NCBI GenBank assembly: GCA_033807695.1
Contig: CM066311.1
Coordinates: forward strand, 2,723,501 to 2,787,500
DNA length: 64,000 nt
From: Daedaleopsis sinensis
Taxonomy: Eukaryota > Basidiomycota > Agaricomycetes > Polyporales > Polyporaceae
Direction of reading: 5' to 3'
Under the pieces are notes generated by a model. It had not been told where the DNA came from. It made no database searches and worked only from the letters and a program-made list of their open reading frames with translations. A program made the position numbers and the translations under genes. Shown in pieces: positions 1-15,065 of this stretch (position 1 is its first letter; every line of letters begins with the position of its first letter).

Positions 1-614
1 TCCGTTCTACGAGACTAGCAGGAGGTACCCGGTTAGCGCTCAGGCGGACGGTTTAGCCACGGTCCTGCCCATCGGCGAGGGTACGACAGGGCGGGTTGGT
101 AGTTGTTTCAGGGTGTCTGCGAGAGCTGGGCAGAGGGTTGTGCGAGGTACACCGCGTGGAGGGCCAGGATTGGGTGAGGAGGACGAGTGGGCCAGGAGTA
201 CAGCGAGTGGCGACGGTAGTAGATAGGATGCCCGTGCGCGGGACTTGTAGCGGCAGATCCCCCATCCCCCACATCCATACAGGCGTGAGCCCAGTAGTCC
301 GACGCTCTCGACGACCTCGCTGTCGAGTCCGTCCTCGGTGTGATCTCCTTCGAGCCCCGCCCTTCCGCGTGCTCCGCCCGTCGTAGTTCCTCGCCCCCTT
401 CCTCGCTCCCCCGTCCCTTCGACGCGCTCCGCCCGTCGTAGTTCCTCTCCTCCTCTTCCGATCTCTCGCTCCCCGTCCTTCGACGTGCGCGTCTCGCCGT
501 AGTCGTCCGTTCCGGCTGCTCGGGAACCAGAGGTCCACCTCGCACCCTTCGGAGAGTCTGCCTGGTGTTTTATCTATTGGGTTTACCTAGTAGATCGCCA
601 GTGCCCTCCCATCA
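1..614 (+). repeat. 5' LTR of the Gypsy element (first ~39 bp missing)
   Basis: Position 1 corresponds to 12742 in the 3' LTR (constant offset 12741). Identity stops exactly after the terminal CA at 614, where the copies diverge into the primer binding site (here) and genomic flank (3' copy). It shows several short open frames on both strands; these are identical in both LTRs and are treated as non-coding. Confidence 0.95.
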
Positions 615-616
615 CT

Positions 617-634
617 TGGAGCCCACCGCGAGGG
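617..634 (+). other. putative primer binding site
   Basis: Two bases after the LTR's terminal CA comes TGGAGCCCACCGCGAGGG, which starts with the TGG expected to pair with a tRNA 3' CCA end. The matching tRNA was not identified. The position is typical for Ty3/Gypsy minus-strand priming. Confidence 0.6.
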
Positions 635-1154
635 GATATTCTCTGCTACCTCTGAGGTCAAGCTGCAACCTACGCTACGACCGGTCCCCGACCCCGCACT
701 CCCCCGAAGCACCACGTCCGGCTTCCGCCCTCCTCGACCGCCACCCGCGGAAGAACCCCAGCGCAGTGCCTCTCCCCTAACCGACCTCGACGAGTTTCCC
801 GAGACGGAGGACCGCCCCGCACCGGTACCTCCCGTTCCCTCTCGCGCCCGCCGTACATCCGCCTCCGTCCCACCGCGTGCCCCCGTTCCGCGTACTACAC
901 AGAACTCTAGAAGAGCCGCTGCGACCGCGGTTGTCCCCGGATTCGACGCTCCCACCGCCTCCGCCGTACGACGAGCCGGCAGGGAACCGACCCCACGAGC
1001 TCCCTTCCCTAGCATCGCACCCCCAGCCCCTCGAGTACCTCCTGCGTCTAGCGCTCCCCGCCTCACGCCTGCGCCCCTGCTACCACCCGCTCAGCAGTCT
1101 CCACAACCGACCGCCCCGAGTCCCCCGCTTCCTCCCACAGCGCCGGTACCCGCC

Positions 1155-3761
1155 ATGGCCTCCCCGCTCGACGCACTCCCCGCGCGCAATAGCCGTCAGG
1201 CGCCCGTCTGGAAGGAGGCCGACACCACCCGCGACGACGTGGAGCTCTTCTTTAAGGACCTCGATCGCCTCTACGCGCAGAACTCCGTAACCGACCTCGC
1301 CGATCAGAAAAAGGGCGCGGCCACCCTCTACGTTCCCCCGGATGTCGCTAAGGCATGGGCGCTTTTGGACACCTTCGACGACGCAAGCAGGACGTGGGGA
1401 GACTTCAAGGAGGAGGTCTTAGGGTTCTACGTCGGCTCCGACAAGGACCATGTCTACACTCGCCGCGAGTACCGCTCCCTTATAGACTCGACCCGGGCCT
1501 CCGGGATCCGCTCCCTCCCCGAGTACCTCGCCTTCTACCGGCAATTCTTCCCGCGGTACAAGTACCTCTCCACGAAGCAGCCCACGGCTGAGGTCTCCGG
1601 ACCAGAGGGAGTCGATGACCTCCTTCGCGTGGCCCCCGTATTCGTCCGCGACAAGGTCGACAACTACCTCAACCTGAAGCATCCGAACAAACACAAGGAC
1701 GACTCGTACCCGCTCGCGGACGTGCACGAAGCCATCACGTACAGTCTCGAAGGAATCCCGCGCGCGCTCGAGACTCGTGCGCCACCGACGTACCCCGTAG
1801 TAGCGCCAGCGGCGGGCATCGACCGCCGAGGAATACCGGTGAAGCCCGAGCCGACGATCGAGACCCTTCAGTCACAGATCCAGAACTATGAGCGCGACCT
1901 CCGCGATCTCCGCGATCTCACGCGGGGATGGACGAACCTCTTGGCGGCGCGCCCGACTCAAGCCCTGCCTCCCCTACCCGCGCCGGCAGTAGCTCCGCCC
2001 GCGGCCGCGAACCTGCCTCCGCCCATGCCGCCGCGTATGCCGCAGAACCAGTATGGTTACGGGCGCCCGCCCTGTTTCTACTGCGGCGAGGAGAACTGTC
2101 ATTCGCGACGCTGCCCGGCCTTCGCGGAGGACGCGGCGAACGGGTTGGTCATCCGCAACGAGCGCGGCTTCATGGTCCTTCCGAACGGCAACGAGGTACC
2201 TCGCAACTGGCCGGGCCTCCACATGCGCGACCGCGTACACAATTGGCATGAGCACAACCCAGGGCAGAAAGTCCAGGCGGCCGCCGCGCAGATGATGGTG
2301 ACGGTGGAGTCCAACATGCTAGAGGGGGCAGCGAACGTCACGGACATCCAGGACCGGATCGATAGTCTCCGCCACCAGGCGTCCATGTTGGAGCATCGAG
2401 TCGCTACGCGCAGCCAGGGCAAGCTGCAATTCGATGGTGTCGAACTTCCCGCGCGCAAGAAGACGGTCCGCATAGACGAGAGCCGGAACCAGGCCCACGC
2501 GCCAACGGGTACCGCGCTAGATCTTGCGCGCGAGGCGCGCGGGGACCGCGACCTTCCGCCTCACCTGGCGCCAGCCGCCCGAAGGGCCGAGGTACCGACC
2601 GTCCAGCCCGCGCGACCCGAACCTCTAGCAGTGGAGCACCCATATGCCGGCGCGCGAGAAGCGACGAACGCGGGCGACATCGCGCCCGTCGCAGCGAACA
2701 AGCCCGTACCGTCCCCGCCGGCAACCTTACCAGCGTCCCTTCCGTCCACGCAACGCGCAGGAACAGAGAGGCCAGGCCCGGTACTGGTGGACCCGACCGC
2801 GGGCCGTCGCGTGTTCGAGCGCGCCTTCGGGCAGGAGCAGCGCGTTATGGTGACGCCATCCGAGCTCGTCAGTATCTCCCCGGAAGTGCGCAAGTACGTT
2901 CACGAGGCGACCTCGCCGAGGCGCGTCTACGCTGCGCGCCAGGCCGCCGAAGGGGTACAACCACAGCCCGCGCAGCGCGAAGGCCCGGCGAGGACAGCGG
3001 AACCAGCGAGGACGGGGACCGAGCCCGGGCTCCAGGTCGCCCAATCAATGGTACAGCAAGCCTGGCCCTGGAACCCGGACGAAGAAGACGAGGGATGGTC
3101 GGAGGAGGACGAAGGGGAGGAGTTCTACGACGCGCTACCGGAGGAGGCGGAAGAAATGCACTGCTTTCGGACGACTGTAGAGGAAGTCGAAGATGAGGAC
3201 GAATACCGGCGCGCGCACGCACCGCTCCACTCGCGCGTCGAAACAATCCAGGGCGAAGACCTCATCGTTGCTGAATCGCTGGCCCCGCTCCGATCCCTCT
3301 ACGGCTTTCTGGGCGCCACGGACGTCACTACGGAGTGCGTCCTCGACTCCGGATCACAGTCCATCTCGATCAGCGTGGAGCACTGCCACCGCCTCAAAAT
3401 CGCGTACGACCCCACGGCACGCCTTAATATGGTCAGCGCAAACGGAACCTCGGACCCGACCCTGGGGCTAGCACGGCACGTCCCGCTCGAGGTCGCCGAC
3501 GGCTTCATCGTCTACCTGCAGATGCAGGTGGTGGAGCACGCTAGCTTCGACGTCCTGTTGGGGCGCCCCTTCGAGCTACTCACCGCGATGAAGGTCAACA
3601 ACGAGCTTGACGGTCGGCAGTCCATCACGATCACCTGTCCAAACACGCACCGTACGATCACCTTGCCCACGTACGCGCGCGGCGAGCCGCCGGCGCGAAC
3701 GCGCGACGAGAAGGTCAAGCCGAGGAAGTCCCCCCTGGGGTTTCTCCTGTCGAGGATCTGA
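1155..3761 (+). CDS. gag-pro: Gag-protease polyprotein of the Gypsy element (868 aa)
   Basis: Structural polyprotein of the retrotransposon. The N-terminal ~220 residues look like a retrotransposon capsid region (charged helices, then a coiled stretch). A zinc knuckle of C-X2-C-X5-H-X3-C type (CFYCGEENCHSRRC) lies near residue 305, followed by a long Pro/Ala/Arg linker and an acidic segment. The C-terminal part is a retropepsin-like aspartic protease: catalytic D-S-G near residue 729 (VLDSGSQS) and the second conserved strand LLGRPFE about 70 residues later. The ATG has a good context (cgccATGg). The frame ends at 3761 and pol continues in the -1 frame, so protease is fused to Gag rather than to Pol. 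The assignment as Gag-Pro is secure; exact mature boundaries are not visible. Confidence 0.93.
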   Translation: MASPLDALPARNSRQAPVWKEADTTRDDVELFFKDLDRLYAQNSVTDLADQKKGAATLYVPPDVAKAWALLDTFDDASRTWGDFKEEVLGFYVGSDKDHVYTRREYRSLIDSTRASGIRSLPEYLAFYRQFFPRYKYLSTKQPTAEVSGPEGVDDLLRVAPVFVRDKVDNYLNLKHPNKHKDDSYPLADVHEAITYSLEGIPRALETRAPPTYPVVAPAAGIDRRGIPVKPEPTIETLQSQIQNYERDLRDLRDLTRGWTNLLAARPTQALPPLPAPAVAPPAAANLPPPMPPRMPQNQYGYGRPPCFYCGEENCHSRRCPAFAEDAANGLVIRNERGFMVLPNGNEVPRNWPGLHMRDRVHNWHEHNPGQKVQAAAAQMMVTVESNMLEGAANVTDIQDRIDSLRHQASMLEHRVATRSQGKLQFDGVELPARKKTVRIDESRNQAHAPTGTALDLAREARGDRDLPPHLAPAARRAEVPTVQPARPEPLAVEHPYAGAREATNAGDIAPVAANKPVPSPPATLPASLPSTQRAGTERPGPVLVDPTAGRRVFERAFGQEQRVMVTPSELVSISPEVRKYVHEATSPRRVYAARQAAEGVQPQPAQREGPARTAEPARTGTEPGLQVAQSMVQQAWPWNPDEEDEGWSEEDEGEEFYDALPEEAEEMHCFRTTVEEVEDEDEYRRAHAPLHSRVETIQGEDLIVAESLAPLRSLYGFLGATDVTTECVLDSGSQSISISVEHCHRLKIAYDPTARLNMVSANGTSDPTLGLARHVPLEVADGFIVYLQMQVVEHASFDVLLGRPFELLTAMKVNNELDGRQSITITCPNTHRTITLPTYARGEPPARTRDEKVKPRKSPLGFLLSRI

Positions 3762-3790
3762 CGGGTAGTCAGGGAGATCTCGCCCTCGTC

Positions 3791-6700
3791 GTGGAGTACG
3801 ACCACGCGACCGGTAAGCTGAACATGACCTCGTACGCCGAACTACAAGATACTAGTCTCGAAACCATCCAACATGCCTATCTATTCGCGACCGACGACCC
3901 AGAAAAATCCACAAAAATCAATAACGCCTTCGCTTCGGCCTCTTTCGTTTCCTCCGTTCCGCTCGTCCCTCCCGAATCCTCATCGTCGTTCGATACCGCG
4001 TCGGCGAAGGCCCCTGGGCCGGGTCCAGAACTTCGACATCCAAAAGCGTCTCCGCAGGAGTCGCATCCCCACTACGCGCGTGCGCGCGCGTACCCTTCCC
4101 GTCCAACAAAATCACTGGGGCGACGCCCTACTTCCCCTCGCGCGCGAAGCGGATCGCTCACCGGGCAGGCGCGGGCGCGCGCCTGGCCCGAAGAAGCGAT
4201 AGAAGTCTACGCGAAGACCAAGAAGAAGTACAAGCCGGTCGCGAAGAAGGTGCGCCCGGTGGCGAGCCACCTTCCCGAGCACTTCAGAATCGTGCGGAAC
4301 CGCGTGGGCGACCCGCTCGAGAACATGCCCCGACTCGACGCGAATCCTCCCCCTTTCAAGCCGACCGGGAGGTACACCCAAGAACGGCACGACCTTATCG
4401 ACGAGATACACCGGGAGTGGCTGTCGCCGGAGGAGTTGCGCGTCCTACACGACCTCATGTGCAAGCAGGAGGCGGCGTTTGCCTGGGAAGAGTCAGAGCG
4501 CGGTCGATTCCGCCAAGATATGTTTCCTCCTGTACGCCTCGCAGTAATCGACCACGTCCCCTACAACGAAAGAAACGCTCCAGTGCCCCCAGGAATCTTC
4601 CGCGTGCTCCTCGAGATGATCAAGCAGAAGATCGACAACGGTGTATACGAGCCGTCCAACGCGTCGTACCGTACGCGGTGGTTCTGCGTGCTCAAGAAGG
4701 ACGGGAAGTTACGCATCGTCCACTCGCTCGAACCGCTGAACCGAATCACCATCCAGCACAGCGGGGTGCCCCCGGTGCCGGAGCATATCGCAGAACAGTT
4801 CGGTGGGCGCCCTTGCGGCTCGACGTTCGACCTCTACGTCGGCTACGACGAGCGGGAGATCCATCCCGACTCGCGCGACCTTACCACGTTCCAGACCCCG
4901 TTCGGTGCGATGCGCCTTACTACGCTCCCTATGGGGTGGACGAACTCAGTACCCATATTCCACGACGACATTACGTTCATCCTGCAGCCAGAAATGCCCG
5001 ACCACGCCGCCAATTACATCGACGACGTCTTCGTCATGGGCCCGAAGAGCGCATACCTGCTGGAGGACGGGACCCCGGAGTGTATCCCCGAGAACCCCGG
5101 TATCCGGCGGTTCGTCTGGGAGCAACTGCAGAACGACAACCGGATCATCCAACGCATCAAGCACGCAGGAGGCACCCTCTCGGGGAAGAAGTCGCGCTTC
5201 GCGCCCCCGCGTTTCGGCGCACTCGGCAGTCGATGTACCCCGGAGGGGCGGGTCGCGGATCCAGAATGCGTACAGGCCGTCGTGAACTGGACAGTGTGCA
5301 AGACGGTCTCCGACGTGCGCGCCTTCCTGGGGACGGTTGGGGTCGCACGCATCTTCATCAAGGACTTCGCGAAGATCGCGAACCCGCTCAACAAGCTGCT
5401 GCGGAAGGACGCGCTGTTCGAGTGGGGACCCGACCAAGTGCGCGCGATGGAGGACCTCAAGTCAGCGCTAGTGCATTCCCCGGCGCTCCGGGCCATCGAC
5501 TACGAAGGCGACGCGCCTGTCATTCTCGCCGTCGACACGTCCAAAATCGCGGTTGGCTACCTCCTGTGTCAGGAGGACCCGGAGGACCCCCGGCGACGCT
5601 TCTACAGTCGCTTCGGGTCGATCACCTTGAACGATCGCGAGGCGCGCTTCTCTCAGCCTAAACTGGAACTGTACGGGCTGTTCCGCGCGCTGCGCGCGAT
5701 GAAGCTCTGGCTAGTGGGCGTCCGTAACCTAGTAGTCGAGATCGACGCGACAGCGATCCGCGACATGCTAAAGAACCCGGATATCGCCCCAAGCGCAGTC
5801 ATGAATCGCTGGATCATCGCGATCCACATGTTCCATTTCGAGTTGCGCCACGTACCGGGGGTACTGCACGGTCCGGATGGACTAAGCCGGCGGATCCGTC
5901 AGCCAGACGACGAAGACGGTGACCTGGAGGACAACGAGGAGTTCGACGACTGGATCGATAACATGTACGGTTTTCTCCATCTCGTGAACATGCCGCCCCG
6001 ACTACCGGACGCGCCCATCCTGTACTCTACGCCAAGGACCGCGCGGGAAGTGGACGCCTTCTTCCAGCAGACCAGCGGGACCGCGGCGTCTCTTCCGGCG
6101 ATCAATACCCCAGACTACAGCGCCTGCCCGCGTACCTTAACGGCCCAAGAATTCGACGCGCGCGTCGACCTCGTGCGCCTCTGGCTGAAGGACGGCTCCC
6201 TACCGCCCCTGACGGACCGCGCGCGCGAACGATTCGAAAAGTACGCCCGGCAGTTCTTCCTACGTGATGGCCGGTTGTGGCGCGTGTCGCACGACGGGAA
6301 CCACCGTCGCGTGCTCGACTGCGAAGTACGCATGGAGATCCTAGCAGGCCTGCACGACCACCTTGGCCACCGCGGGATCGCAGCGACGATATCGTTCGTC
6401 GGGGAGCGCTTCTGGTGGCCCGAGATGAAGGCGGACATCGCGTGGTACGTGAAGTCCTGCCACCAGTGTCAGATCCGCCAGACCTCGCGCGTTCAAATCC
6501 CGCCCACGGTCGCGCTGCCCGCACCTCCCATGGTCCGCGTGCACATGGACACTATGGACATGCCGGGGCGGTACAAGCACTTCTTCCACGCGCGCTGCGC
6601 AACGACGAGCTACGCGGAAGGACGCGCCTCCACCGTGCAGACCGCGAAAGCGCTGGGGGATTGGATCTACCAGGACCTGTTATGCCGGTGGGGCGCCCTC

Positions 6701-7522
6701 TCCGAAATCGTTTCCGATAACGGGTCCGCGTTCGTGGCGGCCCTCGAGCACCTAGAAAGGCAGTACCACGTCAAACACATCCGAATCTCTGGCTACAACT
6801 CGCGCGCGAACGGCATCGTGGAGCGCGCGCACGTCGATATCCGGGAGGCGCTCTTCAAGTCCTGTTTTGACGACCCCCAGAGCGAATGGGTGTCGCGAGT
6901 CTACTCCGTCCTCTGGGCGGACCGCGTGACCACGCGGCGCCGGATGGGGTGCTCCCCCTACTTCGCGATAACCGGGACGCAACCTATCCTGCCGTTTGAC
7001 ATAGCGGAGGCAACCTACCTCATGCCCACGCCGACGGAGCTGATCTCCACCGCGGACCTCATCGCGCAGCGGGCAGTCGCCTTACAGAAGCGCCCAGAGC
7101 AACTCGAACAGCTGCGCTCGCGGGTCTACCGAGCGCGCGTACTCGCCGCGCAAGAGTTCGAGCGCGCACACATACGGACCGTGCGCGACTACAACTTCGC
7201 GCGCGGGAAGCTCGTCCTAATGCGAAACACCGCGATCGAGAAATCGCTCAACCGGAAGATGCGCCCGCGGTACCTGGGACCACTGGTCGTCGTCTCTCGG
7301 AACCGTGGAGGAGCTTACATAGTGGCGGAACTGGACGGTGCAGTACACGACCGTCCAATCGCTGCGTTCCGCCTCCTGCCCTACTTCGCGCGCGACGACC
7401 CCATCACATTCACCTGGAGCGACCTGGACGTCTCACGCGATCGCGTCGCCCAGATGGAACAAGACCCGGACGACTGCGACGACCGCGTCGACCGGGAGGA
7501 GGCCCAGGACGACGACGAGTAG
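3791..7522 (+). CDS. pol: Pol polyprotein: reverse transcriptase, RNase H, integrase
   Basis: Copies the element RNA and inserts the cDNA. Reverse transcriptase spans roughly residues 230-480 with the active-site motif YIDD near residue 408. RNase H follows, starting around AVDTSKIAVGYLL. Integrase has an H-H-C-C zinc domain (HDHLGHRG to CHQCQI) and a D, D(35)E core: D in VHMDTMD, D in IVSDNGS, E in IVERAH with exactly 35 residues between the last two. A GPY/F-like tail (RYLGPLVVV) is present; no chromodomain was seen. There is no good ATG at the front: the start given is a GTG, the first ATG is at 3824, and the frame is open upstream into the end of gag. It is the -1 frame relative to gag, so ribosomal frameshifting is the likely route; the C-run at 3730-3735 is a candidate slip site (inference). 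Confidence 0.93.
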   Translation: MEYDHATGKLNMTSYAELQDTSLETIQHAYLFATDDPEKSTKINNAFASASFVSSVPLVPPESSSSFDTASAKAPGPGPELRHPKASPQESHPHYARARAYPSRPTKSLGRRPTSPRARSGSLTGQARARAWPEEAIEVYAKTKKKYKPVAKKVRPVASHLPEHFRIVRNRVGDPLENMPRLDANPPPFKPTGRYTQERHDLIDEIHREWLSPEELRVLHDLMCKQEAAFAWEESERGRFRQDMFPPVRLAVIDHVPYNERNAPVPPGIFRVLLEMIKQKIDNGVYEPSNASYRTRWFCVLKKDGKLRIVHSLEPLNRITIQHSGVPPVPEHIAEQFGGRPCGSTFDLYVGYDEREIHPDSRDLTTFQTPFGAMRLTTLPMGWTNSVPIFHDDITFILQPEMPDHAANYIDDVFVMGPKSAYLLEDGTPECIPENPGIRRFVWEQLQNDNRIIQRIKHAGGTLSGKKSRFAPPRFGALGSRCTPEGRVADPECVQAVVNWTVCKTVSDVRAFLGTVGVARIFIKDFAKIANPLNKLLRKDALFEWGPDQVRAMEDLKSALVHSPALRAIDYEGDAPVILAVDTSKIAVGYLLCQEDPEDPRRRFYSRFGSITLNDREARFSQPKLELYGLFRALRAMKLWLVGVRNLVVEIDATAIRDMLKNPDIAPSAVMNRWIIAIHMFHFELRHVPGVLHGPDGLSRRIRQPDDEDGDLEDNEEFDDWIDNMYGFLHLVNMPPRLPDAPILYSTPRTAREVDAFFQQTSGTAASLPAINTPDYSACPRTLTAQEFDARVDLVRLWLKDGSLPPLTDRARERFEKYARQFFLRDGRLWRVSHDGNHRRVLDCEVRMEILAGLHDHLGHRGIAATISFVGERFWWPEMKADIAWYVKSCHQCQIRQTSRVQIPPTVALPAPPMVRVHMDTMDMPGRYKHFFHARCATTSYAEGRASTVQTAKALGDWIYQDLLCRWGALSEIVSDNGSAFVAALEHLERQYHVKHIRISGYNSRANGIVERAHVDIREALFKSCFDDPQSEWVSRVYSVLWADRVTTRRRMGCSPYFAITGTQPILPFDIAEATYLMPTPTELISTADLIAQRAVALQKRPEQLEQLRSRVYRARVLAAQEFERAHIRTVRDYNFARGKLVLMRNTAIEKSLNRKMRPRYLGPLVVVSRNRGGAYIVAELDGAVHDRPIAAFRLLPYFARDDPITFTWSDLDVSRDRVAQMEQDPDDCDDRVDREEAQDDDE

Positions 7523-8042
7523 CACGACGGCCCCCAGGAGGGAGCCCATATCAGTTGGGGGGAGAGCGGCCTGCTGCGGAACCCGCTACTGAGCGCGCAG
7601 GAGGAAGAACCCTCCAGCCCTGTCCACCCGTAGCATATCGACTCCCTCCTGTACCGCCCGAACAAAAGAATTAACAATTCATTTCCCCCACTCAATTCAT
7701 GCTACGCGCCACGACAGAGGAACCACCAGATCTTACATTGCAGAAGAATCCCCTGAGAGACAGCATCTACGCGGAGCACAACAGGAAGAAGCGACGGTAT
7801 ATACGGGAGCATAGGCCCCGGAGCGTACAGCAACGACGACGACAAGAGGCGATCGCGGGAGTTCAAGAAGCAAGGCACGGCGAAGGACAGATTAGGGGTG
7901 GATAGTAAGAGTAAGGAGAGGGAGACGAGACGAGACAGGCGCGCGCGCGCCGAGAGAGGTCCATGCGAGAAAAGGAAGAGGCAAGGGAACGAAACAGGAA
8001 GTCCGAGGCCCAGCAGGGCCGCCGCCACCACGCCGCCGACGA
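7523..8042. other. non-coding stretch between pol and the antisense module
   Basis: About 520 bp separate the pol stop from the stop of the convergent antisense gene. No convincing coding sequence is seen. It must hold the 3' ends of two facing transcription units. Confidence 0.6.
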
Positions 8043-10143
8043 TCAGGCGTCCTCCTTCAGGATGTCGCGAAGAACGGAGGCGTTGGGGTCCTCCGCGAAC
8101 TTATCAGCGAACGTAACGACCTCGGGCAAGTCCGCCGCAAAGGCGCTCCCGAACGGAACCCCAGACAGCCGTTGCTCCCGGCGACGAAGCCCAACGAGCT
8201 CCCGCGCGTCCGACCAGATCCGCTCGACGAGGGAATTGGCGCGCTCGCGCCCCTCGCGCACTTCGTCCAGGTCGAAGGCATCATACGCCGGAAGGAGCGA
8301 GGCGGACTTGCTGAGCGTGGAGGCCTTCTTCGGCGCAGAGGACGAAGCCACGGCCGCCCGTGAGGACACGTTGACGGCGGGCGAAGCGGGGACGGGGCGC
8401 CGCGAGACGGTCGTATGCGCGGTGTGCTTGACCGGCTTCTTGACGGCGACTTGCTTGGACGCCGGCTGGGCCACCTCGCTCCGCGCGCTGGTGCGCGGCT
8501 TCTTCGCGCGCGGCGGACTGCCGTCGTCGTCGGAGATCTCGACAACTTCAGCAGCCGCGCCAGCCATCGCGGCGGACGCGGCCTTCGACGTAGCGCACGC
8601 CTGCCCGAGCTGGCGGACGACGGCGTCCTCGGGATACTTCGTGGGCCCCCTCGCGCACCCGGTAAAGGTGAGGCGATCGCTACGGTTGTATAGGCGCTCC
8701 CGGAGCGCCGTCTCATCGAGAACTCGAACCTTCCGCCCGCTCTCCTCGAAATCGCGCGCGAGGTTGATAGCCTCCAACAGCTGGAGGGGGTCCTTGTGCG
8801 CCCGCAGCGCGAAGCCCTCCCCGTTGAAGACGCCGTGGACCGCGTTCTTGGCCGACTTGAACTCCCCGCTGAGAGAGAGCCCACCATACGTGCAGGCAGC
8901 CTTGTGCGTGGGGGGATTGGCACAGCGGTCACACCGGAAAGCCTCGGGGTCCGTCCGGACGCACTCACGCTTGTCCCGGGCGCACTTGTCGCAAGGCCCG
9001 GAGACGGTAATCGCGGCCTTGACCTCGCCGACGTTGGTCGAGGACGGCGCGGGTGTGGCGGCCGGTTTCTTCCCAGCAGCGGCCTTTGCCTTCGCCGGCG
9101 CGTCGGCGGTAGCGTGCTGCTTCGCGGCGGTCTGGCGGGTAGCGCGGACGGAGGCGGCAGGCGCAGGCGCGGGCGGAACGGGGGGCGAGACCTCCAAAAC
9201 GTCCTGGTCCTGAGTGCGCGCGCGCTTCGACCCAGCCTTGCGGGGCGGCGGCGAGGGCGTCGACTCGCCCTCTTCGCTCGGAGTCCGGGCCCTCTTGATT
9301 TTCTCCGTCTTGACGACCACGAGAGGCGAAGGCTCCCTGACGTCCTGCTCGGGAGGGGGGGGCGACGGCGAGGTGGAGGTGCGCGGCGGCGGCGGGCCCT
9401 CTACCGTATCCAACAGCATGGCGTTGACGCTAGGCGAATCTGCCCTACTGCTCTGGACAGGTGGGGTGGGCGAACGAACGGGCACCGGTTCGGGAGGGCC
9501 GGCCCAGGGCACCTCGACGGGCTCGCCTCGGGAGGCACGCGAAGCAAGGAAGAGGATGTCGACAGGGGGATCGACGGGAAGCTTGCGGAAGTCGTCAAGG
9601 CCGATGCACTCGTGCTGTTCCCAGTTGGCGAGGAAGTGCAGGCGACGCGCTTCCCGGAGGCGGCGGGGGTTCACCTCGGACGTGACACGCTCGGACAGGG
9701 AGCTCGCGACGCGCGAACGCGACCTCTGGGTATACTCGCAGAGCACCTCGTAGTGCTCCTCGCTAGGGAGGCGAGCCTCGGAAGCTTCGAGGACGGGATT
9801 GAAGAGCGTGTCGATCTCCTTCGCCTCGTCAACGTCCAGGGACAGCTACGCGAACTGGTCAGCAAGGGAACAGAGTACGCTGGGCAACAATACGTACCAC
9901 GAGATCCAAGGCCCGGTCGACGTATGCTCGGACTTCCTCCTCCGTCTTCGATGCGTAGTCCTCCGATGCGGCGGCGAGGAAGAAATCCTCGGCAACCTGG
10001 GGAGTGACGGAGTCGTCTCCGGAAGGGGACTTTGCGGCGCGTTGGGTAAGCGGCGGCGGGGGACCCGGGTCCGGCAACCCCGAGGATGGCGCAACGGAGC
10101 GCGTGGGGAGCGTCGACGACGAAGGGCGGACGGGAGCAGGCAT
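8043..10143 (-). CDS. Antisense Gypsy gene A: Zn2Cys6-like nuclear protein (682 aa, 2 exons)
   Basis: Spliced model: exon 1 10143-9898, intron 9897-9846 (52 bp, GTACGT...TAG), exon 2 9845-8043; 82 codons then 601 codons, phase 0. The protein is Pro/Ser/Ala-rich with basic clusters (nuclear-localisation-like, for example KIKRARTPS) and one cysteine cluster near residue 366: C-X2-C-X6-C-X9-C-X2-C-X9-C (CDKCARDKREC ... CDRCANPPTHKAAC). This is close to, but not exactly, the fungal GAL4-type Zn2Cys6 pattern. It also has a VKTE sequence fitting the SUMO acceptor consensus and an EVVEISDDD acidic stretch resembling a SUMO-interacting motif. It lies between pol and the 3' LTR on the opposite strand, first of three such genes. 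I do not recognise the family. A DNA-binding or chromatin role is inference from the cysteine cluster only. Confidence 0.8.
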
Positions 10144-10154
10144 GTCGAGGGCAG

Positions 10155-10235
10155 AAGGGAGCAAGAAAACGGCGGACAAGGCGGAAGCGAGAGCAAGAAA
10201 ACGGCGGACAAGGCGGACGCGAGAGCAAGAAGGGG
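10155..10235. repeat. short tandem repeat upstream of antisense gene A
   Basis: About 31-bp units starting GAGCAAGAAAACGGCGGACA are repeated twice plus a partial third copy. It lies between the ATG of gene A (10143) and its TATA-like sequence (10286-10280), so probably in its 5' leader. Confidence 0.7.
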
Positions 10236-10279
10236 GGCGCGGGACAAGGGAGGGGGCGGAAAACTTACCCCTCCAGCGG

Positions 10280-10286
10280 CCTTATA
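10280..10286 (-). promoter_or_regulatory. TATA-like box of antisense gene A
   Basis: The minus strand reads TATAAGG about 137 bp upstream of the ATG at 10143. Position and sequence fit a TATA box; this is inference. Confidence 0.4.
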
Positions 10287-10394
10287 GAGCAGGAATCGCG
10301 CGGTCGTCCCTGCGCGCGGCGCGGTCTGTTTACAAAACAACGACGGGGCGCGCGAGGCGCGGCCCTGGAGCTTCTATTTCAACCACGATCAACA

Positions 10395-11099
10395 CTAGAA
10401 GTCGTCGTCGATAACTATAGTATCGGGACCGCCGTCTACAACCTCCGCCGCCGGTCCGTCCGGTTCCCCAACGCCCCCCGCCGCGCGGGCCGCCTCCTCC
10501 TGCCTCGCGCGCTGAGCCGCGACGCGCAGCTGCAGCGCCTCGCGCCGCTCCACCTCCGCCAGAAGTAGGTCGGTCTCGACGCCCAGAGTGTGAAGCCGGG
10601 CGTTGGTAGCGATCTCGTGCGTTGGATCCGCCAACTGGGCCTGGACGGAATTCAAGACGAGCCGCTGGTAGTCGACATACGCGCGCGCGACGACGAGGTA
10701 CTGGTCGCGAATGGGGTCCACGACGTCCATGATGGCGTTGTCGAACTCGTTTTCCAGGTGCTCCCCGTTGGGCAGGCGAGCAAAGGCAGCGCCAATACGC
10801 TGGAGGTCGGGACGGAGGACGGTGGGCGCCCCGTCATGCAAGGCACACCAGGCTACCTGCGAAGGCAATTCGGTTACTTTCCTCGGACCGGATCACGGCA
10901 GTAGAGCGCTCACCAGCACTGGACCGATCTCCTGGAGGAGAACCGACAGTTCGGGCCCGTCGGTCTCACCGGCGGCGGTTTTCGTCTCGATGCGATCGAG
11001 GAGGCGGAGGAAGCGGCTCAACAGGGTGGTGGTGTAGGAGTGGTAGAAGTCCCGATGGGAGTTTGCAAGATCGAACAGCGGGCGCGGCCGGAGCGACAT
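10395..11099 (-). CDS. Antisense Gypsy gene B: unknown helical protein (215 aa, 2 exons)
   Basis: Spliced model: exon 1 11099-10914 (62 codons), intron 10913-10857 (57 bp, GTGAGC...CGCAG), exon 2 10856-10395 (154 codons with stop), phase 0. The protein is mostly predicted helix, with a charged coiled-coil-like region near the end (LLAEVERREALQLRVAAQRA) and a very acidic C-terminus, DTIVIDDDF, resembling a SUMO-interacting motif. It has the same architecture as genes A and C: a short first exon and one small phase-0 intron. No known domain is recognised. A TATA-like CATAAAG lies about 80 bp upstream. The clean splice sites and open frame across the join make a real gene likely; function is unknown. 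Confidence 0.72.
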
Positions 11100-11616
11100 G
11101 TTGGGCTACGTGTAAAGCGGCGCGGACGGGGGGGCGGAACAAGTCGCAAGCTACCTCCTGCCGCGCGGGACGTAGCTTTATGGCTCGCACGGATAGGGGA
11201 AGGGAGGAGCGAAAATCGACCGACCCCAGGTGGCGCATATTTCTGGCGACGCCACGTCCCGCACACGGTGGAACTGGGGCCCGAGAGCCCTCTCCTGTCT
11301 CTCCGCGACGGGTGCAGCGAACGATACGAGCGGAGCGCGAAGGACGGGCGTGCGGCGCGACCGGAAAGCGATACGGACAGCGCGCGATGGACTGGACTAG
11401 CGAGCGAGACGAGCGGCGCGCGAAAGACTGGCGAGCAAGGCGACTAGCGAGCGGAATGGACAACGCGCGACTGATTTAGGCGAAAGGACAACTAACGAAA
11501 CGATACAGGCGACACCCCATCGAAAACGGCAGCGGCGGCGGTACCGGACGGAGACCGGGGAGGCTCCCAACCGTACCTCCTCCCGACCCACAGCAGCTTC
11601 TCCACTCCATCCTGCG

Positions 11617-12238
11617 CTAGAAGTAGTTGTGGCCGCGCAGGGCGGACAACTCGGAGTTCAATGTTTCACGCTCGGCCTCGAGGTCGCGAATATGTTCGTC
11701 CAGGACTATAGCAAGGGTAATCCCTTCTCCCTCGGCACGGTCCGCGGTACGGCGGAGTGTACGGAGCCCTACGAGAGCCCGCTGAGCGATCGCGCGCTGC
11801 GTTACAACCTGGTCGATGCGTAGGAGGCGGCGGTCCGCGGCGACGCGGTTCTGGAAGGTCGCGAACGCGGCGCGCCCGAAGTCGCGCCAGCCGTCCAGAG
11901 TGGCTCGCTCGACCCGGGCAATATAGGCGGAGACAGCGGTTGCGGGAGAACCCACGAGGACGAGCGCGCCCTGGACGAGCACGGTCAGGAAGACAGGGAG
12001 ACGGGAAAAACGGAGGGCGTACCAGCATGTCGGCCAGAGCAAGGAGCTCGTGTTCCACGTTCTGTAGTTGGCCCTCGGAGCCGGCATCGGACAAGACCTC
12101 GTACTCCACGACAGCGCGCTCGAGCTGTCGAGCTGCCAACGTGTACGAACGGGCCAGCAGTTCGGGGTCCAACGGGACGCTCGGAAGGGACGGGGCCCGG
12201 AGGTTGGGGAGGTCGTCGCGCAGGGGAGTACCGTTCAT
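11617..12238 (-). CDS. Antisense Gypsy gene C: unknown coiled-coil protein (189 aa, 2 exons)
   Basis: Spliced model: exon 1 12238-12023 (72 codons), intron 11971-12022 (52 bp, GTACGC...TCCAG), exon 2 11970-11617 (118 codons with stop), phase 0. The protein is helical throughout; the C-terminal ~60 residues form a likely coiled coil (IVLDEHIRDLEAERETLNSE) ending in HNYF. It is the most upstream of the three minus-strand genes and lies just inside the 3' LTR. A TATAAAG sits about 41 bp upstream of the ATG. No family is recognised. It may be a distant relative of gene B (shared intron phase and placement, helical content), but the similarity by eye is weak. Confidence 0.72.
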
Positions 12239-12278
12239 GGTCAAGAAGCGTGCGGAAGGGCGCGAGCACTGTCCGTCC

Positions 12279-12285
12279 CTTTATA
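12279..12285 (-). promoter_or_regulatory. TATA-like box of antisense gene C
   Basis: The minus strand reads TATAAAG, 41 bp upstream of the ATG at 12238. It would let the module be transcribed independently of the LTR. Confidence 0.5.
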
Positions 12286-12685
12286 CCCGGCAGCAGGACC
12301 GGGGACGGTCCCGATTTCAGTTGGGGGGAGATGATGCGCCTCGAGGTGGCGCGAGCCCCGATTTTCGCGCCATCGTCGATACCGACGATGCCTACGACGC
12401 AGGACACGACCTACGGTCTCCGCCTCTCCCTCCTTCCTGGACACCACGGAGCAGAGGCGGGAGGGCGCGATACCCGCCAGCCTCCCATACCGCACACGCC
12501 GGTACGCCAGGCCCGTAGCCCACCGCGGCCTAGGTTCCTTCGACGTGCGGAGGCCGACGGAGGTCCGAAGAGGTGTTCACGTCGGTCCGCCGGGACGCCA
12601 GCCGGTAGCACCTACCGACGTCTGAGACCGGGCCGGGTCGAGGCCAGGGTGATACGCGAGGCGCGGGACCGATGATACACTGGAC

Positions 12686-12702
12686 GCAGGGGAGGGCGCG
12701 GC
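12686..12702 (+). other. polypurine tract
   Basis: A purine-rich run GCAGGGGAGGGCGCGG lies directly before the inferred 3' LTR start (TGTGGC at 12703), where plus-strand DNA synthesis would be primed. Confidence 0.6.
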
Positions 12703-13355
12703 TGTGGCAGTGCTGAGAGCCCACCGCTGTGGTGCTCCCGCTCCGTTCTACGAGACTAGCAGGAGGTACCCGGTTAGCGCTCAGGCGGACGGTTTAGCCA
12801 CGGTCCTGCCCATCGGCGAGGGTACGACAGGGCGGGTTGGTAGTTGTTTCAGGGTGTCTGCGAGAGCTGGGCAGAGGGTTGTGCGAGGTACACCGCGTGG
12901 AGGGCCAGGATTGGGTGAGGAGGACGAGTGGGCCAGGAGTACAGCGAGTGGCGACGGTAGTAGATAGGATGCCCGTGCGCGGGACTTGTAGCGGCAGATC
13001 CCCCATCCCCCACATCCATACAGGCGTGAGCCCAGTAGTCCGACGCTCTCGACGACCTCGCTGTCGAGTCCGTCCTCGGTGTGATCTCCTTCGAGCCCCG
13101 CCCTTCCGCGTGCTCCGCCCGTCGTAGTTCCTCGCCCCCTTCCTCGCTCCCCCGTCCCTTCGACGCGCTCCGCCCGTCGTAGTTCCTCTCCTCCTCTTCC
13201 GATCTCTCGCTCCCCGTCCTTCGACGTGCGCGTCTCGCCGTAGTCGTCCGTTCCGGCTGCTCGGGAACCAGAGGTCCACCTCGCACCCTTCGGAGAGTCT
13301 GCCTGGTGTTTTATCTATTGGGTTTACCTAGTAGATCGCCAGTGCCCTCCCATCA
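12703..13355 (+). repeat. 3' LTR of the Gypsy element (653 bp)
   Basis: It starts TGTGGCAG after the purine tract and ends CCATCA at 13355, giving TG...CA ends. From 12742 on it matches the 5' copy. The exact start is inferred from the purine tract and the TG, because the 5' copy is cut by the window. Confidence 0.88.
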
Positions 13356-13459
13356 ACGTTTACCGTACATAGATTCACGAATCCCGCGCGGTCGTTATTT
13401 GTCGGCGACCACAGCTACATCGTCACATAGCGCTGTTTTCCTCACTCGAGCCTATCCAC

Positions 13460-13792: not shown

Positions 13793-14084
13793 TACGGGTA
13801 CGTGGGTTGTGTATCACTGTGTATAATATCGTCCGTGTCTATATGTATGTGATTTGTGCCTTCACACCTCGGCTCTCCGCGTCACTCTGCTCTGCTCTTA
13901 ACTTCACCGACTCTCTGCCTCCTCCTCGCTCCGAAATCCCGACCTTCCAATTCGCAACAACGCTCACAAACGCTCCACTTTATGCTAGGTGTGGACTCTC
14001 TTCATCGCCGCACACAATTTCTCACAACATCGCCGCAGTACTCTGCGCTGGGCTAATTCGCCTTCGCACCGCTCACCGATCCTC

Positions 14085-15065
14085 CGTCACTCTGCACTAC
14101 GCCTCGTCACCGCGTTTCTCGACGTCAACCTTCACTACTCTGCACTACGCTGCGTCGCCGCGCTCTGGACGCGCTAAACTCCGTCACTCTGCACTGCGCC
14201 TCGTCACTGCATTTCTCGACGCAAGTACACTCCCGCCATTCCGAGGCGGGTCGCTTTCTGGAGCAGATCGGCCCTCGCCGCTCCGCCTCTCCTATCCTGC
14301 GGGCCACACCCGGTCACTCTGCACTACGCCGCGTCGCCGCGCATCTCGAAGCACTCCAACACACACCGCCGTCGTGTGTACTCCGCCTCGCCGCGCTTCA
14401 AAGCTTCACGACCCACCTTCCCGCGTCGCTTTTCACACCTCCGCACTGCACCTCGTCTCGGTGCGATGCAAAGCATCGCTCTGTGCTACACCTTCCTCTG
14501 TCGCTCTGCACCCCGATGCGCTACACCTCGTCTCGGTGCGATGCAAAGCATCGCTCCGTGCTACACCTTCCTCCGTCGCTCTGCACCCCGACGCGCTACA
14601 CCTCGTCTCGGTGCGATGCAAAGCATCGCTCCGCGTTGCACCTTCTTGCGTCGCGTTTCACCCCTCCGCACTACACCTCGTCTTGGTGCGATGCTTTGCG
14701 CTACACCTTCCCGCGTCGCTCTGCACCCCGACGCACTCCACCTCGTCTCCGTGCGTCGCTTTGCACCCCTCCGCACTCCACCTCATCTCCTTGCGTTGCT
14801 TTGCATCGCTCCGCGGTACACTTTCCCGCGTCGCTTTGCACTCCTCCGCACTACCTCGCCTCACGACTGCCGTGCACGACTCGGCGCATCGCTTTCCACC
14901 CCTCCGCGCTACACATTCTCTCCTCCGCTCGCAAGCTCTCCCCGACGCCCGTCGCATCACGCCAAGGCGCGACATGCCGCCTCGCCCCGCTTCCCGACAC
15001 TACACCACTCCGCCGCGCTACACCTTCCCTCCTCCGCTCGCAAGCTCTCCCCGACGCATCTTTTC
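14085..15065. repeat. pyrimidine-rich minisatellite with 75-bp core units
   Basis: A long, imperfect tandem array rich in ctccgcactacacctcgtc-type blocks. The anchor GTGCGATGCAAAGCATCGC recurs at 14461, 14536, 14611 and, altered, at 14686: a regular 75-bp period. Each anchor holds the inverted repeat GCGATGC-AAA-GCATCGC. Because 75 is a multiple of three, a 448-codon frame (13807-15153) runs through it with 25-residue repeats; I treat that as a by-product, not a gene. Confidence 0.85.

Follow-up and report, generated by a model that had tools for sequence, protein, structure and literature searches.

Three conserved, intron-containing antisense genes between pol and the 3' LTR of a Ty3/Gypsy retrotransposon in Daedaleopsis sinensis

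The window analysed was a 64,000-nt stretch of Daedaleopsis sinensis DNA (assembly GCA_033807695.1, contig CM066311.1, positions 2,723,501-2,787,500 of the forward strand), and every copy and family compared with it came from this one genome. An LTR retrotransposon was observed at its start, with a 5' LTR beginning 410 bp ahead of the window (C12:2723091) and an LTR pair identical at 1024/1024 bp. The TG...CA LTRs, the target duplication and the RT-RNase H-INT order identify it as a Ty3/Gypsy element. Within pol, the RNase H and H2C2 integrase matches exceeded the Pfam curated cut-offs; the RT match (E 2.4e-5) fell below its curated cut-off, as did a weak integrase core match. No chromodomain was found in pol by Pfam scan at E <= 1, and the element was not placed in the chromovirus branch of Gypsy, which has this domain at the integrase C-terminus. 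Profile scans of the element proteins returned no envelope-like domain. The 4.8-kb interval between pol and the 3' LTR holds three reverse-strand genes, g1, g2 and g3 (682, 215 and 189 aa), and the features of the element, in window positions, are as follows.

1-614, + strand: 5' LTR, truncated by the window, identical to 12742-13355
1155-3761, + strand: gag with aspartic protease, 868 aa (ORF; weak Pfam aspartyl protease match)
3791-7522, + strand: pol with RT, RNase H and H2C2 integrase, 1243 aa (Pfam)
7529-7546, + strand: possible AGGA-loop hairpin preceding the internal polypurine tract (PPT), three perfect pairs by the loop
7553-7565, + strand: internal (second) PPT AGTTGGGGGGAGA at the pol-module junction, identical over 13 nt to the element's own 3' PPT
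8043-10143, - strand: g1, 682 aa, exons 10143-9898 and 9845-8043
8892-8993, - strand: Zn2Cys6-like motif of g1, residues 367-400, C-x2-C-x6-C-x9-C-x2-C-x9-C (motif scan)
9846-9897, - strand: g1 intron, 52 bp, phase 0, GT-AG, at a homologous position in families B and C
10395-11099, - strand: g2, 215 aa, one intron (10913-10857)
10857-10913, - strand: g2 intron, 57 bp, phase 0, GT-AG, at a homologous position in B and C
11617-12238, - strand: g3, 189 aa, one intron (12022-11971)
11971-12022, - strand: g3 intron, 52 bp, phase 0, GT-AG, seen as an intron-sized gap between exon matches in 34/34 family C copies
12280-12285, - strand: g3 TATAAA box, 47 bp ahead of the ATG (-47 in A and B, -43 in C)
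12296-12311, + strand: hairpin GGACCG-GGGA-CGGTCC, also a CCG-N4-CGG palindrome, upstream of the 3' PPT
12319-12331, + strand: 3' PPT AGTTGGGGGGAGA (sequence comparison)
12332-13355, + strand: 3' LTR, 1024 bp, TGATGC...CCATCA (LTR comparison)
13356-13359, + strand: target-site duplication ACGT, 3' copy; the 5' copy lies directly before C12:2723091

An initial annotation had proposed three antisense genes of these lengths, each with one phase-0 GT-AG intron of 52-57 bp, and our gene models confirmed them. The same genes, in the same order, were also observed in two related families, B (pol 92% identical to that of family A, represented by the window element) and C (about 63-65%), with all three introns at homologous positions. 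Identity to A for g1, g2 and g3 was 51, 76 and 80% in B and 27, 21 and 30% in C, and gag of A was 87-88% identical at the amino-acid level to B copies, in one comparison with three of them and another with one. Across 15 copies (the window element and 14 others), intact frames were observed for g2 and g3 in 15/15 and for g1 in 13/15. Of the 45 genes in these copies 44 were modelled, and every one of the 44 contained its intron; they include a decayed g1 with GT..AA and exclude the split g1 in copy C11. From 121 PF17921 matches we selected 43 A/B/C integrase sites by score class and frame (C3:4809396, with 71.4 bits and a frame of another length, was left out), and 40 of the 43 had g3 downstream on the opposite strand. 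The three sites without g3 were C4:2636, which is near a contig end, C10:244760, which has g1, and C6:4155766. Five of 45 g3 sites were without a nearby integrase from the 121-match list. The element thus belongs with LTR elements that carry an antisense ORF in the pol-3' LTR interval, kept in most copies of the family.

Selection was estimated as dN/dS (NG86, 95% bootstrap) between families A and B only, A vs C being near synonymous saturation. Values were 0.42 (0.339-0.509) for g1, 0.15 (0.100-0.224) for g2 and 0.13 (0.078-0.205) for g3, compared with 0.06 for pol and 0.11 for gag. Sense-strand frames built on these aligned exon codons gave higher values throughout (0.28-3.4), and stops were present in all except one (a g2 frame in family B). 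Differences between A and B at antisense codon positions 1/2/3 numbered 241/198/337 in g1, 36/28/97 in g2 and 30/17/80 in g3. At the level of sequence, these results show that g1, g2 and g3 have remained largely intact, with purifying selection acting on them, in three element families; the check that the initial annotation had proposed, frames conserved among copies with dN/dS below 1, came out in its favour. Since related families keep all three under selection, the genes look like working parts and not chance frames.

The probability that they are chance ORFs, or host genes recently captured as passengers, appears negligible. GC-rich DNA readily yields long antisense ORFs by chance, and a few genomic g1-g3 matches lie away from the listed integrases, but the genes persist in three families with pol identity as low as 63%, their frames are intact in nearly all modelled copies and dN/dS is well below 1 in each; these data refute chance ORFs. 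Against capture, the own-genome matches listed for g1-g3 comprised only A/B/C copies and isolated or decayed similar pieces. The same data bear on whether selection targets the antisense transcript, which would restrict sense RNA or supply RNAi, with the proteins secondary. Antisense transcription is discussed as a possible retroelement regulator in the available text of PMC7264820, but an RNA-only role does not predict selection at the amino-acid level; dN/dS of 0.13-0.42 and A-B differences mostly at antisense position 3 indicate that selection acts on amino acids, making this explanation very unlikely.

The initial annotation had also reasoned that passage through sense-strand RNA, where antisense introns are not spliced, shields the introns, and their retention in the 44 modelled genes and in all family C g3 genes fits such passage. 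Its report of a TATA-like sequence before each gene held in part: the TATA box of g3 alone was kept in all three families, while the sites of g1 and g2 were not kept across all three. Upstream of g2 we observed CATAAA at -83 in A and -78 in B and TATAAA at -48 in C, and upstream of g1 a TATA-like site was observed in A alone, at -143, with none in B or C.

The six cysteines of the g1 motif were invariant across families A, B and C, with a spacing of C-x2-C-x6-C-x9-C-x2-C-x8/9-C. Zn2Cys6 proteins usually show C-x2-C-x6-C-x5-16-C-x2-C-x6-8-C, and the last spacing in A and B is one residue above this pattern. The Pfam Zn_clus match to g1 was sub-significant (E 1.4) and confined to one of the three members (A, B, C). 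Three matches at E <= 10 were returned by a PDB sequence search with g1, the second and third being GAL4 (E 1.9 and 4.3, not significant), both at the Zn2Cys6-like motif, and the top one, IF-1, unrelated. KR-rich clusters were also observed in g1 by motif scan, and a single-sequence AF2 model of its zinc region was uninformative (pLDDT 38). No recognisable relatives of g2 or g3 were found by Pfam, NCBIfam and PDB sequence searches, or by Foldseek for g3, a protein predicted to be helical (352 matches to g3 exon 2 at E <= 10, 0 at E <= 0.001), and viral_contigs scans gave no confirmed relatives. A paralogous relationship between g2 and g3 was ruled out (hhalign probability 0.54%).

In families A, B and C an internal PPT stands ahead of the module and has the same 13 nt as its own family's 3' PPT, and the two vary between families in step; positions 7529-7570 are 93% identical to family B. 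The outer pairs of the possible hairpin at the internal PPT lie past a C-A mismatch, and minimum-energy folding yielded this hairpin at the B and C sites but not at the A site. Away from the PPTs, RGGA hairpins with stems of at least 5 (G-T allowed) were observed once in A and once in C. The scanned stretches contained 18 CCG-N4-CGG motifs in A and 9 in C, one of those in A being flanked by the 3' PPT on one side and the g3 TATA box on the other. Zn2Cys6 proteins typically recognise CGG triplets, and the motif near the g3 TATA box is a candidate g1 binding site, although as a sequence match it is only suggestive.

Every element whose 5' flank could be read (34/34) had CG centred in the 4-bp duplication, compared with a CpG frequency of 0.081; on the 3' side, two elements were without a CG centre. 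Among LTR ends other than the 5' LTR of an exact pair, 14 of 54 were without NCG. One LTR end, at C10:2799739, is followed by TCGC. The CpG-centred target site could be explained by g1 tethering the pre-integration complex to CpG/CCG-rich DNA, as both the 34/34 count and the CGG preference of Zn2Cys6 proteins would suggest, but a strict dinucleotide within the duplication is more simply an integrase property, and the preference was measured on module-bearing elements. We consider such targeting quite improbable.

LTR pairs were 99.4-100% identical in the 12 elements measured, a set without the B copy at C5:3460100-3474500, and families A, B and C were therefore recently active. The CpG observed/expected ratio was 1.25 in the internal region of the element, 1.11 at 13356-34000 and 0.89 at 34001-64000, so the internal region is not CpG-depleted. 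These two observations, together with a divergence of g1, g2 and g3 between families that is far faster than that of pol, are consistent with a rapidly evolving counter-defence in which the module proteins would oppose silencing of the element by the host through DNA methylation, heterochromatin or RNAi. However, fast divergence equally fits loosely constrained regulators and absent CpG loss equally fits young age, dN/dS was below 1 in all three genes, and a known suppressor domain was not found in g1-g3. A role in anti-silencing is therefore rather unlikely.

HBZ of HTLV-1, a bZIP-type protein, is encoded by an animal retrovirus, and we claim no homology between it and the module. It resembles the genes modelled here in its antisense orientation, its splicing and its regulatory type, and in lying at the 3' end of an LTR element with a promoter at the 3' LTR side, where ours is predicted (PMC10186651, available text). 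Closer in element type, the plant Retand lineage of Ty3/Gypsy, with the related Grande (gene23) and RIRE2, carries antisense TRP28 ORFs, and the available text of PMC11963269 and PMC7264820 describes, as here, a non-chromovirus Gypsy element with conserved antisense coding that is possibly nuclear and DNA-binding, in a pol-3' LTR region of 2.9-6.6 kb (4.8 kb here). The Grande antisense gene is transcribed from its own upstream promoter (PMC7264820, same text). In contrast to the plant elements and their TRP28 domain, the fungal element has three proteins without recognised domains, one of which carries the Zn2Cys6-like motif. Membership in Retand was rejected, as Pfam scans covering g1 of families A, B and C, exon 2 of g2, and g3 listed no TRP28 (PF04195) match. 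The word 'intron' is absent from the two Retand papers, whereas each gene model here is spliced.

Among fungi, Boty-like elements of Botrytis and Sclerotinia carry an antisense gene, brtn (Zhao 2011, as cited in the available text of PMC7264820, PMC8365987 and PMC4227169). This gene of a fungal LTR element also lies in the pol-3' LTR interval (PMC7264820), and with this precedent the novelty for fungal Gypsy elements is not supported in the form first suggested. Compared by description, Boty has one named antisense gene whereas three spliced gene models are observed here, and PMC4227169 describes a CHROMO domain in a Boty-like copy and, in the same passage, a 5-bp duplication, in contrast to our element, with no chromodomain in the Pfam scan and a 4-bp CpG-centred duplication. 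Extra PPTs are known in the plant elements Sireviruses and Athila4/Calypso, and Sireviruses have an inverted repeat at the PPT; according to the available text of PMC2829016, most extra PPTs of Sireviruses cluster near the 3' LTR without an inverted repeat, whereas here the single extra PPT adjoins pol and is accompanied by its own possible hairpin. Antisense ORFs at this place, as in plant Retand/Grande and fungal Boty, are thus of a kind already known. Three co-conserved spliced antisense genes together with a second PPT and CpG-centred integration are a new variant, a combination for which our literature search found no description.

We favour, with modest confidence, a young Ty3/Gypsy element with a conserved antisense accessory module that would be expressed from the minus strand, with g1 as a regulator and the internal PPT as a primer. 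The module is most likely a nuclear accessory or regulatory unit, its expression and function being predicted. Transcription would proceed on the minus strand, for g3 from the TATA promoter in the g3-3' LTR interval, and would probably draw on LTR sequences. The module introns would be invisible to the spliceosome in sense genomic RNA and would therefore pass reverse transcription unharmed. As a predicted nuclear Zn2Cys6-type DNA-binding protein, g1 may act with the small proteins g2 and g3 to regulate how the element itself is transcribed or silenced, in a manner that would resemble retroviral antisense regulators, and in reverse transcription the internal PPT may start plus-strand synthesis upstream of the 4.8-kb module. 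A bolder version, which we entertain only tentatively, is a three-protein antisense operating system between two PPT units, in which a Zn2Cys6-type binder and two small partners would control their own antisense promoter via CCG-N4-CGG, counter silencing and/or steer integration to CpG, with introns kept by orientation alone.

These observations describe introns stably held in a retrotransposon, apparently via antisense orientation, over deep family divergence. The antisense accessory genes of LTR elements are joined by a trio, one member of which has a DNA-binding-like motif together with a candidate site. Two further features, the second PPT and a CpG target site with very few exceptions, lend themselves to direct biochemical testing.

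The window is the terminal part of a 2.79-Mb contig from a genome of 51.6 Mb and 24 contigs, which by its genes and elements we take to be that of a fungus, probably a basidiomycete. It carries a Ty3/Gypsy LTR retrotransposon whose pol domains were found in Gypsy order (RT, RNase H, H2C2 integrase) in a Pfam scan.

Features of the window element
1-13355, forward strand: Ty3/Gypsy element, of which a further 410 bp precede position 1
1155-3761, forward strand: gag, open frame
3791-7522, forward strand: pol, open frame
7529-7565 and 12296-12331: polypurine tract (PPT) regions, each with a drawable RGGA-loop stem, duplicated in element families A, B and C

The insertion is young, since its 1024-bp LTRs (termini TGATGC...CCATCA) are identical at 1024/1024 positions, and it is flanked by the 4-bp duplication ACGT (3' copy at 13356-13359). 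Three reverse-strand genes had been placed between pol and the 3' LTR by the initial annotation (g1, g2 and g3; 682, 215 and 189 residues), and these models hold as given. The CpG observed/expected ratio was 1.25 in the internal region (615-12331) and 1.07 in the LTR; two flanking stretches gave 1.11 and 0.89. The internal region thus shows no indication that methylation or RIP has depleted it of CpG. CT-rich tandem repeats (14082-14875; units of about 49, 75, 65 and 40 bp) were observed directly downstream.

The window copy belongs to family A, together with C5:1961058 (read without its 5' end) and C11:301838-319009. All genome copy counts are lower bounds: family B has at least seven copies, with pol 91-92% identical to A and gag 87-88% in the copies compared, and family C has pol 63-64% identical to A and at least 34 g3 genes. 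The gene order g3, g2, g1, all antisense, is common to the three families. Among 121 PF17921 matches, 43 integrase sites were assigned by us to A, B or C, and 40 of these had g3 on the opposite strand 4.8-8.9 kb downstream. Identity to the window proteins was 51% in B and 27% in C for g1, 76% and 21% for g2, and 80% and 30% for g3; such fast divergence of the module proteins would be compatible with an anti-silencing role. No such module was seen by eye in the ORF list of one other Gypsy element of this genome (L041), chromovirus-like in appearance. Two decayed g2 relatives with stops (C12:16554-16898 and C3:4683699-4684046; 67-68% identity), at distances of roughly 17 and 187 kb from the ends of their contigs, are perhaps relics of an older family. 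A g3 gene at C8:557024-558631 (exon 2 82% identical), with no listed A/B/C integrase in its vicinity, sits close to an A/B-type LTR end followed by CCGC.

The expectation that the frames would be kept in other copies with dN/dS below 1 was borne out. We modelled 15 copies, the window copy and 14 others (two A, seven B, five C), and 13-15 of 15 were intact per gene (g2 and g3 15/15, g1 13/15). In the A-B comparison (NG86; 95% intervals from 500 bootstraps), dN/dS ranged from 0.13 to 0.42 in the module: 0.42 (0.339-0.509) for g1, 0.15 (0.100-0.224) for g2 and 0.13 (0.078-0.205) for g3, with gag at 0.11 and pol at 0.06; A versus C, near synonymous saturation, was left out of use. Within g1, constraint was strongest over the final 73 aligned codons (0.19) and in the zinc-motif block (0.31). 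One g1 had a frameshift and a GT..AA intron, and every other intron modelled was GT..AG, the interrupted g1 being left out. That g1, of family A, is split by a 3.4-kb insert (C11:305817-309220). The two ends of the insert make up a large inverted repeat, with 1.36-kb arms that are 90% alike and have the ends CACCTGTGGTCACC, and the insert appears to be a non-autonomous DNA transposon.

Phase-0 introns lie at homologous sites in A, B and C in g2, in g3 and as the first intron of g1, and the exon matches of family C g3 were 52-58 bp apart in 34 of 34 copies. In genomic RNA these antisense introns would read CT..AC and would therefore not be spliceable, in keeping with their observed retention. 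Family C g1 (C9:424949-427210) carries two introns beyond those of A and B, either gained in C or lost in the A/B line, within a retroelement gene. Antisense ORFs at the pol-3' LTR position are known in plants (PMC11963269, PMC7264820) and in the fungal element Boty (PMC7264820, PMC8365987, PMC4227169); HBZ of HTLV-1 is spliced and antisense (PMC10186651), and rotifer LTR elements carry extra ORFs (PMC5408684). The arrangement had been considered unusual for a fungal Gypsy element. Boty provides a precedent for the antisense position, but in the parts of the open-licence literature covered we found no fungal LTR element described as carrying three spliced antisense genes.

A second PPT lies shortly 3' of pol (AGTTGGGGGGAGA in A and B, AGTGGGGGGGAGG in C; 7553-7565 in the window) and is identical in sequence to the 3' PPT of the same family in all three. 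In each of the three families both PPTs allow the RGGA-loop stem to be drawn, with differing stem sequences and the loop starting 17-18 nt before the PPT. It was present in the minimum-energy fold at five of six PPT sites, being absent at the A internal site. At the internal sites of A and B the stem has just three perfect pairs beside the loop, followed by a mismatch. Extra PPTs are reported for Sireviruses, Athila4/Calypso, Ty1 and HIV-1 (PMC2829016).

Target sites were centred on CpG. All eight A/B elements readable on both flanks had a perfect 4-bp duplication VCGN, and the LTR-paired family C elements had VCGN on the 5' side in 26/26 and NCG on the 3' side in 24/26 (first letter matching the 5' side in 24/24; two without NCG). 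The 5'-side site thus had a central CG in 34 elements genome-wide (8 A/B and 26 C). LTR pairs were chosen by requiring the final 18 bases of the LTR to match exactly, which leaves diverged copies uncounted; CpG frequency in window positions 14001-64000 was 0.081. CpG targeting may be a property of the integrase alone, and no description of CpG-centred integration by a fungal LTR element was found in the open-licence literature, as far as its covered parts extend.

The g1 protein has KR-rich clusters and a motif C-x2-C-x6-C-x9-C-x2-C-x8/9-C, its six cysteines invariant across A, B and C. Profile matches of the Zn2Cys6 type were sub-significant, to Zn_clus in one of three family members (E 1.4) and to GAL4 at the correct position (E 1.9 and 4.3), and a single-sequence AF2 model of the zinc region was uninformative (pLDDT 38). 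Exon 2 of g3 is predicted to form three long helices (pLDDT 68), with no significant structural match in Foldseek; g2 had no significant match in Pfam/NCBIfam scans or a PDB sequence search.

A TATA-like sequence had been claimed upstream of each gene. This stands for g3, with TATAAA 47 (A), 47 (B) and 43 bp (C) upstream of the ATG, between g3 and the 3' PPT; ahead of g2 and g1 any such sequence is less clear or missing. ACCG-N4-CGGT occurs in all three families between this TATA box and the 3' PPT. It is a plausible Zn2Cys6 site and also belongs to the PPT hairpin stem, and can thus be assigned to neither; these elements contain CCG-N4-CGG fairly often, with 18 occurrences in A and 9 in C. 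We infer that the module genes are expressed. The DNA-binding-like g1 motif, the position of the promoter towards the 3' LTR and the parallels with HBZ and the plant element Grande make element-encoded nuclear regulation our best guess for what the module does.
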